A program made the position numbers and the translations under genes. Positions 16,131 to 19,331 of a stretch of DNA of 48,863 bases are shown piece by piece. The first letter of the stretch is position 1. Each line of letters begins with the position of its first letter. The DNA lies in NCBI RefSeq assembly GCF_019247615.1, contig NZ_JAFBAT010000075.1, positions 1-48,863 on the forward strand. Direction: 5' to 3'. The DNA comes from Mycobacterium sp. (GTDB lineage: Bacteria; Actinomycetota; Actinomycetes; Mycobacteriales; Mycobacteriaceae). The notes under the pieces were generated by a model, which was given only the letters and a program-made list of their open reading frames with translations, did not search any database and was not told where the DNA came from.

Positions 16131-16790
16131 TCAGTCGCCCACGCGGCAGCTGACTTCCATGCTGTCGCTGGCCCGCACGGCGAAGTTGAAGCTCACGTAG
16201 CCGTTCCCGGGATCGCGCACCCGGTCGAGGTAGGGCCGGGTGTCGGCGGCGTTGGCATTATCGGCGACCACCAATGCGCCGGTCGACAGCCGCGGTTCGA
16301 GGAGCTCGATCACCGGAAGATACAGATCCTTCCAACCGTCGAGCAGAACGAACTCGATGGGCCCACCGACATCGGCGAGTGTGGACAGCGCATCTCCCTC
16401 GAGAATGGTGATCAGGTCGTCCAAACCGGTCTCGGCGAACGTCTGCCGGGCGGCGGCGATTTTGCCGGCGTTGAGCTCGGTGGTCACCACACGGCCGGTC
16501 CCGTTGTCGCGCACCGCGGATGCCAGATGGATGGCGGAAATGCCGAAAGACATGCCGAATTCGATCACCGTCGTCGGCCGGATCGCCCGCACCAGGGCAT
16601 ACAGCAGCCGGCCGGCCTCCGCCGTCACCGGGATGTAGAACTCGCTCATCGCGTCGGCGCGCTCCTGCGCGGTCATCGGCCGACCGAATTCGCCGTGCCT
16701 CGCGCGCAACAGCGACATTTGCGCCTTCGCTTCGGCGTACATCCGGTCGAGCGCGGCGGCGACCCTGGGGTCGCGAAGAGTGCTGGCCAT
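16131..16790 (-). CDS. Class I SAM-dependent O-methyltransferase
   Basis: The product is 219 aa. It shows the Rossmann SAM fold of catechol/caffeoyl-CoA type O-methyltransferases: IEFGMSFGISAIHLA (motif I), VVTTELNAGK with the ribose-binding acidic residue, LDDLITILEGDAL, and FVLLDGWKD followed by ALVVADNA, the usual metal-binding acidic region. The substrate is not evident. It converges with the acyltransferase gene and is divergent from the magnesium riboswitch region. Confidence 0.88.
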   Translation of the reverse strand: MASTLRDPRVAAALDRMYAEAKAQMSLLRARHGEFGRPMTAQERADAMSEFYIPVTAEAGRLLYALVRAIRPTTVIEFGMSFGISAIHLASAVRDNGTGRVVTTELNAGKIAAARQTFAETGLDDLITILEGDALSTLADVGGPIEFVLLDGWKDLYLPVIELLEPRLSTGALVVADNANAADTRPYLDRVRDPGNGYVSFNFAVRASDSMEVSCRVGD

Positions 16791-16874
16791 GTCCTCGAGA
16801 GTAGGCAGGCAAGCGCCGCGAAACGCAAATTCGCTCTTGGTTACGAAAAGCTTAATTGAAGGTTGCGAAAAGGT

Positions 16875-16904
16875 TTGACGGCCCTTGGGTCACGCAGGCA
16901 AAAT
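16875..16904 (+). promoter_or_regulatory. Possible promoter of the M-box leader
   Basis: TTGACG is separated by 18 bases from CAAAAT, ending just before the first conserved M-box bases. The -35 element is close to consensus and the -10 element is poor, so this is a suggestion only. Confidence 0.35.
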
Positions 16905-16908
16905 GGAT

Positions 16909-17078
16909 GAGCAAGCACCTCGGTAGGTGAGGCGTCTGCACGGATAGAGGCCACTGACCCCGAACGTCGAGAGACGCCCCGGTTCAGGACAGCTCTTCCC
17001 GGGTCCAAGGGTTGAGCCCAAGTGGCTTCTGGACGCGGTTCCGGATACGCCGTGCAGTGCCGAAGCTCCGGCGAGAGG
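16909..17078 (+). promoter_or_regulatory. M-box (ykoK) magnesium riboswitch aptamer
   Basis: The 391-base gap between the methyltransferase and the first small ORF holds the conserved blocks of the M-box in the right order: GGTAGGTGAGGC, then GGATAGAGGCC, CGTCGAGAGACGCC, and finally ATACGCCGTGCAGTGCCGAAGCTC. These match the known consensus (GUUAGGUGAGGC, GAGAGACGCC, ACGCCAUACAGUGCUAAAGCUC) closely. M-box RNAs fold tightly when Mg2+ is plentiful and then turn off magnesium-uptake genes. M. tuberculosis has M-boxes before Rv1535 and the PE20 locus. Here the downstream genes are two small ORFs and an NRAMP-family transporter. Exact ends are approximate. Confidence 0.9.
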
Positions 17079-17121
17079 GGTGTGCGACCGGCGCGTTCGG
17101 CGTCGGTCAGTGGCGCCTCTT
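17073..17121 (+). promoter_or_regulatory. Candidate expression-platform hairpin after the M-box
   Basis: GACCGGCGC pairs with GCGTCGGTC around a GTTCG loop (one G-U pair), enclosed by AGAGG/CCTCT. The 5' flank overlaps the end of the aptamer, as expected for a switching hairpin. A T-rich tract is missing, so control could be by Rho or at translation. Confidence 0.45.
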
Positions 17122-17181
17122 TCGTTCAGGTGGATGTCATGACACCCGCGTGTGTCCCGGCCGTGAGGAGGTGAGGGCGAG

Positions 17182-17292
17182 ATGAGCAAGACCAGTCCGG
17201 GCGATAGTCGGTATCCAAAATCATCTCGTCCCGATCCGGATGTCGAGTTCTTCCCCACGTGCGTTGAATCCGTTGCGCGTGCGCGCAGTTGA
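17182..17292 (+). CDS. Small ORF (36 aa) directly after the M-box
   Basis: This ORF is too short for the track. The ATG is preceded by GTGAGGAGGTGAGG, a very strong ribosome site, and encodes a 36-residue, proline- and charge-rich peptide (starts MSKTSPGDSRYPK, ends SVARARS). It has no hydrophobic segment. It may be a real small protein or a leader peptide that adds a second level of control to the riboswitch. No family was recognised. It ends 55 bases before the next small ORF. Confidence 0.55.
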   Translation: MSKTSPGDSRYPKSSRPDPDVEFFPTCVESVARARS

Positions 17293-17347
17293 CGCAGTGG
17301 CGTGGAAACGAGACGAGTCGGTCGGGCCCTCCGGCAAGGAGAAGATC

Positions 17348-17554
17348 ATGGCATTTGTCATTTCACGGCGACTCACCGGCCAACGAACCCGCTCCATGCT
17401 GCGTGCCGGCCGCCTATGGGCCGACAAGCTGCACCTGCGGAGCACGCTGACTCCGCAGGAGCGGGCGAATCTTTATGTCTCGCGGATGCCGATCGCGGTG
17501 GTCACCGCCTCGCTGGGCGGCCACCCCTCGGACAGCACGCGCAGCCGGCAGTGA
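17348..17554 (+). CDS. Small conserved-looking protein (68 aa) between riboswitch and transporter
   Basis: The start is the ATG at 17348, preceded by AAGGAGA at good spacing; the track ORF from 17240 is longer than needed. The product is basic and soluble: it opens MAFVISRRLTGQRTR, then has LRAGRLWADKLHLRSTLTPQERANLYVSRMP in its middle part and a Ser-rich tail. No domain is recognised. The position behind an M-box parallels the small unknown protein Rv1535 of M. tuberculosis, and homology should be tested. It ends 118 bases before the transporter, with a strong hairpin in between. Confidence 0.65.
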   Translation: MAFVISRRLTGQRTRSMLRAGRLWADKLHLRSTLTPQERANLYVSRMPIAVVTASLGGHPSDSTRSRQ

Positions 17555-17566
17555 TTCCCTCCCATG

Positions 17567-17605
17567 GCTCAGCGGCGGGCGCCGGTGCGGGGCCCGCCGC
17601 TGAGC
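17567..17605 (+). terminator. Perfect 14-bp hairpin between the small ORF and the NRAMP gene
   Basis: GCTCAGCGGCGGGC and GCCCGCCGCTGAGC are perfect complements around an 11-base loop. There is no T-run. It could stop most transcripts after the small ORF, attenuate the transporter, or protect a processed end. It starts 12 bases after the 68-aa ORF stop. Confidence 0.6.
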
Positions 17606-17672
17606 GAGCATTCCTCGCGGACGCAGGCCGCCGGTTTCCCCAGCTCGAAGTCGTTGAGCGGGCGACGATTCG

Positions 17673-19331
17673 ATGACGTCTGTCTCGACCGATGCGGCGG
17701 CCGCGGTTCCCCCGTGCGAGGGGGACATCATCGGCGCATTCGGCCGCGTTGGCCGTGACGTCACCAGCGACGGTCGCAGATGGTGGCAACGGCTGCGTCT
17801 GCTGATGGTCATCGCCGGTCCCGGACTGATCGTCATGATCGGCGACAACGATGCCGGCGGGGTCGCCACCTACGCACAGGCCGGACAGAACTGCGGCATG
17901 CAGCTGCTGTGGGCGCTCGTGCTGATGATTCCGGTTCTTTACGTCAACCAGGAGATGGTCCTTCGGCTGGGCGCAGTCACCGGGGTGGGACATGCGCGAC
18001 TGATCTTCGAACGGTTCGGCAAGTTCTGGGGCGCATTCAGCATCGGCGACCTGGTGGTTCTCAACGCGTTGACCATTGTCACGGAGTTCATCGGCGTGGC
18101 GCTGGCGCTCGGCTTCCTCGGATGTCCGAAGACCATCGCGATACCGGCGGCCGCCGTCTTGCTGTTCGCAGTGGTGGCCGGCGGCTCGTTCCGCCGTTGG
18201 GAGCGGGTGACATTCGTGCTCATCGCGGCGAACGTCGCGCTCATCCCGCTCATCCTGTTGGTGCATCCCGCCCTGGGCCCAACCCTGCACGGGTTGGTGC
18301 CGTCGTTGCCCGGCCATCCCGACTCGGTCGTGCTGTTGTTGATCATGGCGATCGTGGGTACCACGGTGGCGCCGTGGCAGTTATTCTTCCAGCAGTCCAA
18401 CGTCGTCGATAAGCGGATCACGCCGCGCTGGATGCGTTACGGGCGAGCCGACCTGGCCATCGGCATCGTCGGCGTAATCGGAGGCGCGATCGCCCTGATG
18501 GCGACCACCGCGTTCGGTCTGGCCGGTACCGCCGCTGCGGGCAGGTTCACCGACGCCGCGGCGGTGGCCTCCCAGCTGTCCGGCCACCTCAGCCACACGG
18601 CCGGGGTCCTGTTCGCAATCATCTTGTTGGATGCGTCGCTGATCGGTGCGAACGTCGTCGGGCTCTCGACCACCTACGCGCTCGGTGACGCTATGCGCAA
18701 GCCGCATTCGCTGCATTGGAAAGTCACCGAGGCGCCACTGTTTTACGGGTGCTACGCGGTGCTGCTGGCGGTATCGGCGGCCGTGGCGTTCAGCCCGGAC
18801 CACATCCTCGGGCTGATCACCCAAGGCGTGCAAGCGCTTGCCGGCGTTCTGTTGCCTTCGGCCACAGTGTTTTTGGTGCTGCTCTGCAACGACCGAGCTG
18901 TGCTGGGTCCTTGGGTGAACACCGTGCGGCAGAACGCCCTGGCGTGGACCATCGTATGGTCGCTGGTCGTGCTTTCGCTGATGTTGACCACGGTGACGTT
19001 CTTTCCCCAGCTGTCGACTCCGACGCTGGCGAGCGGGCTCGCCGTCGGCGCCGGGCTCGGCGCGCTCGGCGCCGCCGTCGTCTTTGCCGTCGGCTGGTTC
19101 ACGGACCGACGCGACGGGGATACATCGGCGAGGTTCGGCGGCCTGACGTTGGCGGAAAACACCGCCATTCGCGATGAGATGCGCGCCAACTGGACCACGC
19201 CTGCATTGGCGACGCTGGAACGGCCGGTGATGTCGTCGATGCGGCGGGCCGGGCTGCTGACGTTGCGTTGCTATCTTGTCCTGGCCGGCGTTCTGGTCGT
19301 TGTCAAAGTGGTGGAGGCCGGCTTGGCTTGA
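17673..19331 (+). CDS. NRAMP-family transporter, probably a magnesium transporter (NRMT-like)
   Basis: This is a membrane protein of 552 aa with about eleven hydrophobic segments in the NRAMP/SLC11 pattern (AGPGLIVMIGD in helix 1, GTTVAPWQLFFQQS in helix 6). The metal-site motifs differ from manganese/iron NRAMPs: DPGN is replaced by D60-A-G-G and the MPH of helix 6 by A233-P-W, so the soft methionine ligand is missing. The related NRMT branch, which moves Mg2+, also lacks that methionine and was first recognised through M-box riboswitches. Together with the upstream M-box this makes Mg2+ uptake the best guess. The C-terminal extension after about residue 450 (TDRRDGDTSARFGG, then one more helix) is longer than in short NRAMPs. 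Confidence 0.88.
   Translation: MTSVSTDAAAAVPPCEGDIIGAFGRVGRDVTSDGRRWWQRLRLLMVIAGPGLIVMIGDNDAGGVATYAQAGQNCGMQLLWALVLMIPVLYVNQEMVLRLGAVTGVGHARLIFERFGKFWGAFSIGDLVVLNALTIVTEFIGVALALGFLGCPKTIAIPAAAVLLFAVVAGGSFRRWERVTFVLIAANVALIPLILLVHPALGPTLHGLVPSLPGHPDSVVLLLIMAIVGTTVAPWQLFFQQSNVVDKRITPRWMRYGRADLAIGIVGVIGGAIALMATTAFGLAGTAAAGRFTDAAAVASQLSGHLSHTAGVLFAIILLDASLIGANVVGLSTTYALGDAMRKPHSLHWKVTEAPLFYGCYAVLLAVSAAVAFSPDHILGLITQGVQALAGVLLPSATVFLVLLCNDRAVLGPWVNTVRQNALAWTIVWSLVVLSLMLTTVTFFPQLSTPTLASGLAVGAGLGALGAAVVFAVGWFTDRRDGDTSARFGGLTLAENTAIRDEMRANWTTPALATLERPVMSSMRRAGLLTLRCYLVLAGVLVVVKVVEAGLA

Follow-up and report, generated by a model that had tools for sequence, protein, structure and literature searches.

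Introduction

In Mycobacterium avium, a ykoK leader has been mapped before MAV_5197, a 'manganese/iron transporter' gene (Ignatov 2013, PMC3774663). A 'Mn2+-type' class of mycobacterial Mboxes, an arrangement not seen in Mycobacterium tuberculosis (Mtb), has also been described (D'Halluin 2026, PMC12810186). A literature search for 'ykoK leader' together with 'manganese transporter' in Mycobacterium returned no further report. Translation of a small ORF, uORF2, mediates the action of the Mbox of Mtb pe20 (rv1806): an anti-SD tract pairs either with SD1, located where the aptamer ends, or with SD2, and Rho-dependent termination contributes (PMC12810186). The uORF2/Rv1805A family, as described there, consists of a small ORF after the conserved SD2, with a conserved N-terminus and a nearly universal proline, and its peptide was called specific for mycobacteria. 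In Clostridium acetobutylicum, M-boxes lie upstream of Mg2+-importing NrmT (Ca_c0685 and Ca_c3329; Shin 2014, PMC4072509). NrmT of Acidobacterium capsulatum, which has no M-box, acted mainly as a Mn2+ transporter and was best at rescuing a Mn2+-uptake defect (PMC4072509). The metal-site signature of NRMT proteins is DxxG-TxxA/T (Ramanadane 2022, PMC8806188).

An initial annotation of the mycobacterial DNA analyzed here pointed out the pairing of an M-box with an NRAMP-family transporter. The pairing is not new: with a manganese-annotated transporter it is already known in mycobacteria from both studies cited above, and Clostridium provides an earlier case of an NRMT under an M-box. What we add is the assignment of the transporter to the NRMTs, the phylogenetic range of the pairing, an analysis of the expression platform and two small ORFs between switch and transporter.

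The aptamer and the genes behind it

The locus comprises the following features:

16875..16904, + strand: candidate sigma-70-type promoter, TTGACG-18-CAAAAT, 7 nt before the aptamer (a consensus match, not proof)
16912..17086, + strand: M-box (ykoK leader) magnesium aptamer, RF00380, full length
17182..17292, + strand: uORF2, 36 codons, MSKTSPGDSRYPKSSRPD..., a member of the small-ORF family that follows other mycobacterial M-boxes
17348..17554, + strand: small M-box-linked protein of 68 aa with conserved core LTPQERANLYVSRMPIAVVTASLGGHP, found in Mycobacterium and Nocardia
17673..19331, + strand: NRMT-type NRAMP transporter, 552 aa, with predicted metal site D60, G63 (DxxG) and T230, A233 (TxxA)

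A cmscan search of the whole 48.9-kb window (the entire stretch of DNA analyzed) matched the M-box model RF00380 over its full length (1–169) with 134.4 bits (E 3.4e-30), far above the gathering cut-off of 44 bits across the entire aptamer. No other RNA family was matched in the window. The M-box blocks claimed in the initial annotation, which had named this covariance-model search as a check, are thus real and were placed correctly to within a few bases. The promoter-like match is the sole one in 16750–17700, with 0.1 expected by chance.

The next membrane transporter on the same strand is indeed NRAMP-like, as first annotated (Pfam Nramp PF01566, 236.8 bits). The gene layout given earlier was right for the M-box and this gene, but overlooked the two short ORFs of 36 and 68 aa between them. 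Neither small ORF matched any Pfam or NCBIfam family.

Identity of the transporter

The best solved relative of the 552-aa transporter is ElNRMT (7QIA; E 1.3e-53, residues 39–439), whereas chains named MntH matched at only about E 1e-11. Its metal site reads DAGG in TM1 (D60-AG-G63) and TTVA in TM6 (T230-TV-A233). This agrees with the NRMT pattern of DxxG in TM1 and TxxA/T in TM6, and replaces the DPGN and AxxM of canonical MntH. The NCBIfam model for MntH (NF001923) gave 93 bits against a cut-off of 430. In a tree, the protein fell on the ElNRMT side, with DraNramp and the genome's own MntH split off at 100/100 support, although several reference branches are long. The same genome carries six NRAMP genes. 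Among them is a canonical MntH paralogue (contig C319), which carries DPGN and ATVM and whose matches (E 3e-94 to DraNramp, 1e-8 to ElNRMT) show the opposite pattern.

Because ElNRMT is the best match, the DAGG/TTVA signature is present and the tree places it accordingly, the protein is, judged from its sequence, NRMT-type and not the manganese transporter usually named. From this we infer Mg2+ as its substrate. Membership of the NRMT branch alone is no proof of Mg2+ transport, since A. capsulatum NrmT moved mainly Mn2+.

Spread of the M-box/NRMT pairing

M-boxes were found in 77 of the 149 genomes of a genus survey. At all 29 of the closest orthologue loci in the genus, the gene is preceded by an M-box on its own strand. 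The same holds for 42 of 44 named loci of at least 60% identity from Mycobacterium, Nocardia, Streptomyces, Streptacidiphilus, Kutzneria and others; in one of the two loci without a match, the contig stops ~570 bases upstream of the gene. Combined, 71 of 73 close orthologue loci, including those of Nocardia, Streptomyces and Kutzneria, carry the association, compared with 8 of 36 at 50–55% identity, all eight actinobacterial. The association therefore follows one actinobacterial branch. Together with the score of the aptamer, this conservation excludes chance for the M-box/NRAMP pairing.

Two single-contig genomes of 3.3 Mb retain an open NRMT frame behind weaker M-boxes. In one of them the M-box is decayed (84.6 bits) and the second small ORF broken, with uORF2 and the NRMT frame still open. 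Multiple M-boxes also occur: a Streptacidiphilus locus has two divergent ones (1004–1182, − strand, and 1387–1566, + strand), and two genomes each have three on one strand within 7–9 kb, near an NRMT gene.

The genome studied here contains two further M-box loci. On contig C287 (locus L150, 1540–7840) the order is M-box, PE, PPE, PPE, an MgtE-N/CBS protein and a second NRMT. On contig C96 the M-box is followed by uORF2, by a short ORF where Rv1535 would stand and by ileS, with names read from sequence. The two loci match the pe20-type and rv1535-type classes described in PMC12810186. A single Mg2+ switch apparently governs both surface PE/PPE proteins and an inner-membrane importer in L150. 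At another locus (L152, 2774–13402), with genes named by eye, two divergent M-boxes stand ~420 bases apart. One side bears an NRMT like the 552-aa transporter; the other bears PE-/PPE-like ORFs, two Esx-like small proteins, an MgtE-N-like protein and a second NRMT.

Expression platform

Four elements of the leader form the predicted platform:

17072..17082, + strand: SD1 CGAGAGGGGUG, the purine-rich 3' strand of aptamer P1 (anti-antisequestor), with P1 taken from the Rfam alignment
17086..17108, + strand: hairpin GACCGGCGC-GUUCG-GCGUCGGUC between SD1 and anti-SD, from folding
17114..17124, + strand: anti-SD tract CGCCUCUUUCG, predicted to pair with SD1 or SD2 from the joint score and MFE folds
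17163..17173, + strand: SD2 GUGAGGAGGUG, putative ribosome binding site of uORF2, from modelled accessibility

The anti-SD tract could form 11 contiguous pairs with SD1 or 9 with SD2 (17165–17173). The joint complementarity of the three elements at this locus was reached by none of 60 shuffles; among relatives it was significant singly for a few and not for most. The predicted alternative folds are mutually exclusive: MFE folding paired the anti-SD with SD1 when SD1 was present, and with SD2 when SD1 was removed (P1 closed). With a longer stretch of uORF2 folded, the modelled unpaired probability of SD2 was 0.45 with SD1 free and 0.04 with SD1 hidden, while with a shorter stretch the values were 0.21 and 0.29 and switching was absent. 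The accessibility change of 0.41 compares with a mean of 0.03 for shuffled linkers, none of 25 being as large.

Among 30 NRMT-type mycobacterial leaders, freeing SD1 made SD2 more accessible in 18 and less accessible in 2 (Wilcoxon p 0.0003, a statistic that ignores relatedness). The mean change was 0.101, against 0.028 for shuffled linkers. The parts of a pe20-type platform, namely SD1, an anti-SD with SD1 or SD2 pairing and a uORF after SD2, are thus present with moderate family-wide support. Folding favors a translational OFF switch of the pe20 kind, short of proof.

The uORF2 start codon also lies inside an 11-bp stem, GGGCGAGAUGA / UCAUCUCGUCCC (17175–17185 with 17221–17232), formed with codons of uORF2 itself. 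Comparable stems in Nocardia and Streptomyces leaders had no significance against shuffles. In four groups, RNAalifold folds contained a hairpin joining SD2 or the uORF2 start to the 3' half of uORF2; two of its pairs had changes on both sides in Nocardia. Its energies were no better than those of column-shuffled alignments (z +1.4 to −1.3), and a synonymous-codon control gave no signal in NRMT-type leaders. Given these two negative results, we regard a conserved hairpin here as a mere suggestion.

The two small ORFs

At this locus, uORF2 begins right after the strong ribosome site GUGAGGAGGUGAGGG. The family is kept in Mycobacterium, Nocardia and Streptomycetaceae. Its sequence reads MSPGDSPYPKSVLSRSGSG at most NRMT-type loci, MSSGDSPSRYLTS at other mycobacterial M-box loci, MKSGDSPYPSP in Nocardia and MDCSSPGHSCPYPR in Streptomyces. 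Contrary to the mycobacterial specificity stated in the 2026 paper, the family therefore extends beyond mycobacteria, as far as these peptide sequences tell. Position and the SPGDS motif of the present uORF2 would fit the Rv1805A family, judged by the description of Rv1805A, but it has Arg (GDSR) where most relatives have Pro (GDSP), and its C-terminus is divergent.

Over the seven codons P-G-D-S-P-Y-P of NRMT-type loci, pS was 0.41 and pN 0.06, and the peptide is therefore under selection. At the same loci the motif Ser is AGT in 38/38 and the Tyr TAT in 34/34, with Pro codons varying freely. Across all distinct uORF2 genes the counts are 79/79 and 44/44, whereas in the transporter genes of these loci AGT accounts for 4.3% of all Ser codons. 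The ten codons after the motif (pS 0.23, pN 0.20) point to a constraint on the RNA.

The 68-aa protein belongs to an LTPQER...ASLGGHP family, and 11 of 13 further loci retrieved for that family have an M-box, including loci with other downstream genes. AlphaFold predicted a helical protein at low confidence (pLDDT 60). One M-box region (L175, L176) holds two copies of the small protein.

A wider, tentative proposal, which we hold to be doubtful, is that the uORF2 peptide (SPGDSPYP) and the LTPQER...ASLGGHP protein belong to a regulon module headed by the actinobacterial M-box. Translation of uORF2 could then add a second layer of Mg2+ sensing, based on the ribosome, to that of the riboswitch, and the LTPQER protein could be a partner or regulator of the NRMT. 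These two conserved, largely unexplored small proteins pose concrete, testable questions.

Proposed mechanism and alternatives

Magnesium uptake under RNA control, as first annotated, is supported as the best reading of the locus, because the M-box and the NRAMP gene are both real and Mg2+ transport in the NRMT branch has been shown in Clostridium and Eggerthella. The amendment concerns the first target of the switch, which is most likely translation of the short uORF and not the transporter itself. We consider it probable that the locus is a Mg2+-responsive operon with a translational OFF switch and an NRMT importer, running from the M-box through uORF2 and the 68-aa protein to an NRMT-type inner-membrane Mg2+ importer. 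Mg2+ as ligand, translational control and co-transcription are what we infer for it. At high Mg2+ the aptamer would close P1 and hide SD1, leaving 17114–17124 to pair with SD2 and block uORF2 translation. By analogy with Mtb pe20, Rho may then terminate the untranslated RNA, and the operon as a whole would fall silent. When Mg2+ is low, P1 would open and SD1 capture the anti-SD tract; SD2 would be exposed, and uORF2, the 68-aa protein and the importer would be produced.

Three other explanations bear on different parts of this reading. The transporter could be mainly a Mn2+ or broad divalent importer, with the M-box coupling Mn2+ uptake to Mg2+ status or sensing other divalents. The manganese annotations in PMC3774663 and PMC12810186 and the rescue by A. 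capsulatum NrmT speak for this, but the metal site is that of an NRMT, with Ala in place of the AxxM methionine (TTVA), a separate canonical MntH is encoded in the same genome, and the M-box association of orthologues is near-universal. We therefore judge it rather unlikely. We find it quite improbable that the switch uses an intrinsic terminator of transcription, the mode of B. subtilis ykoK, instead of hiding a ribosome site. A weak stem GGCGUCGGUCAGUGGCGCC followed by UCUUUCGUUC (17099–17117) does fit a loose terminator pattern, but it overlaps the stronger hairpin at 17086–17108 and has a discontinuous T run. The SD1, anti-SD and SD2 elements moreover occur as in Mtb pe20, where Rho was shown and an intrinsic terminator was not found.

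Finally, the M-box could act chiefly for the two small ORFs, with the importer expressed from a promoter or start of its own farther along; this is very unlikely. There are 118 bases between the 68-aa ORF and the transporter gene, and the same small ORFs follow M-boxes without this transporter. From Mycobacterium to Streptomyces, M-box and transporter nevertheless keep the same order and strand, and no further promoter-like match occurs between 16904 and 17673.

If a Mg2+-responsive operon with an NRMT importer is the true explanation, mycobacterial 'manganese transporters' behind M-boxes would have to be renamed Mg2+ importers. Many non-tuberculous mycobacteria would possess a dedicated inner-membrane route for low Mg2+ that M. 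tuberculosis is without, and the gene order of L150 would suggest a place for M-box PE/PPE operons.

Comparison with known systems

The closest match is to M. avium MAV_5197 and the 'Mn2+-type' class, which, judged from their descriptions, likewise have an M-box followed by a manganese-annotated transporter and are most likely orthologous to this locus. Both papers name the transporter as manganese or manganese/iron, whereas we place it in the NRMT (Mg2+) branch. The C. acetobutylicum operons Ca_c0685 and Ca_c3329 likewise have an M-box before an NRMT. They carry in addition an MgtE-N-like gene that the present operon lacks, although the second M-box operon of the same genome (L150) has one.

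The 552-aa transporter and ElNRMT (Ramanadane 2022, PMC8806188), aligned over 39–439, have DAGG and TTxAPW in common; the mycobacterial protein differs in ~110 extra C-terminal residues with further hydrophobic segments. E. coli MgtL offers a logic comparable to the second-sensor role proposed for uORF2. Both have Pro and acidic residues early in the N-terminus, a lead only, and the EPDP motif of MgtL is absent from uORF2. In its leader, the locus resembles Mtb pe20 (rv1806, with uORF1 and uORF2/Rv1805A), sharing aptamer, SD1, anti-SD, SD2 and a conserved small ORF after SD2. The genes controlled differ, being PE/PPE and mgtC in Mtb and, as proposed, an NRMT here.
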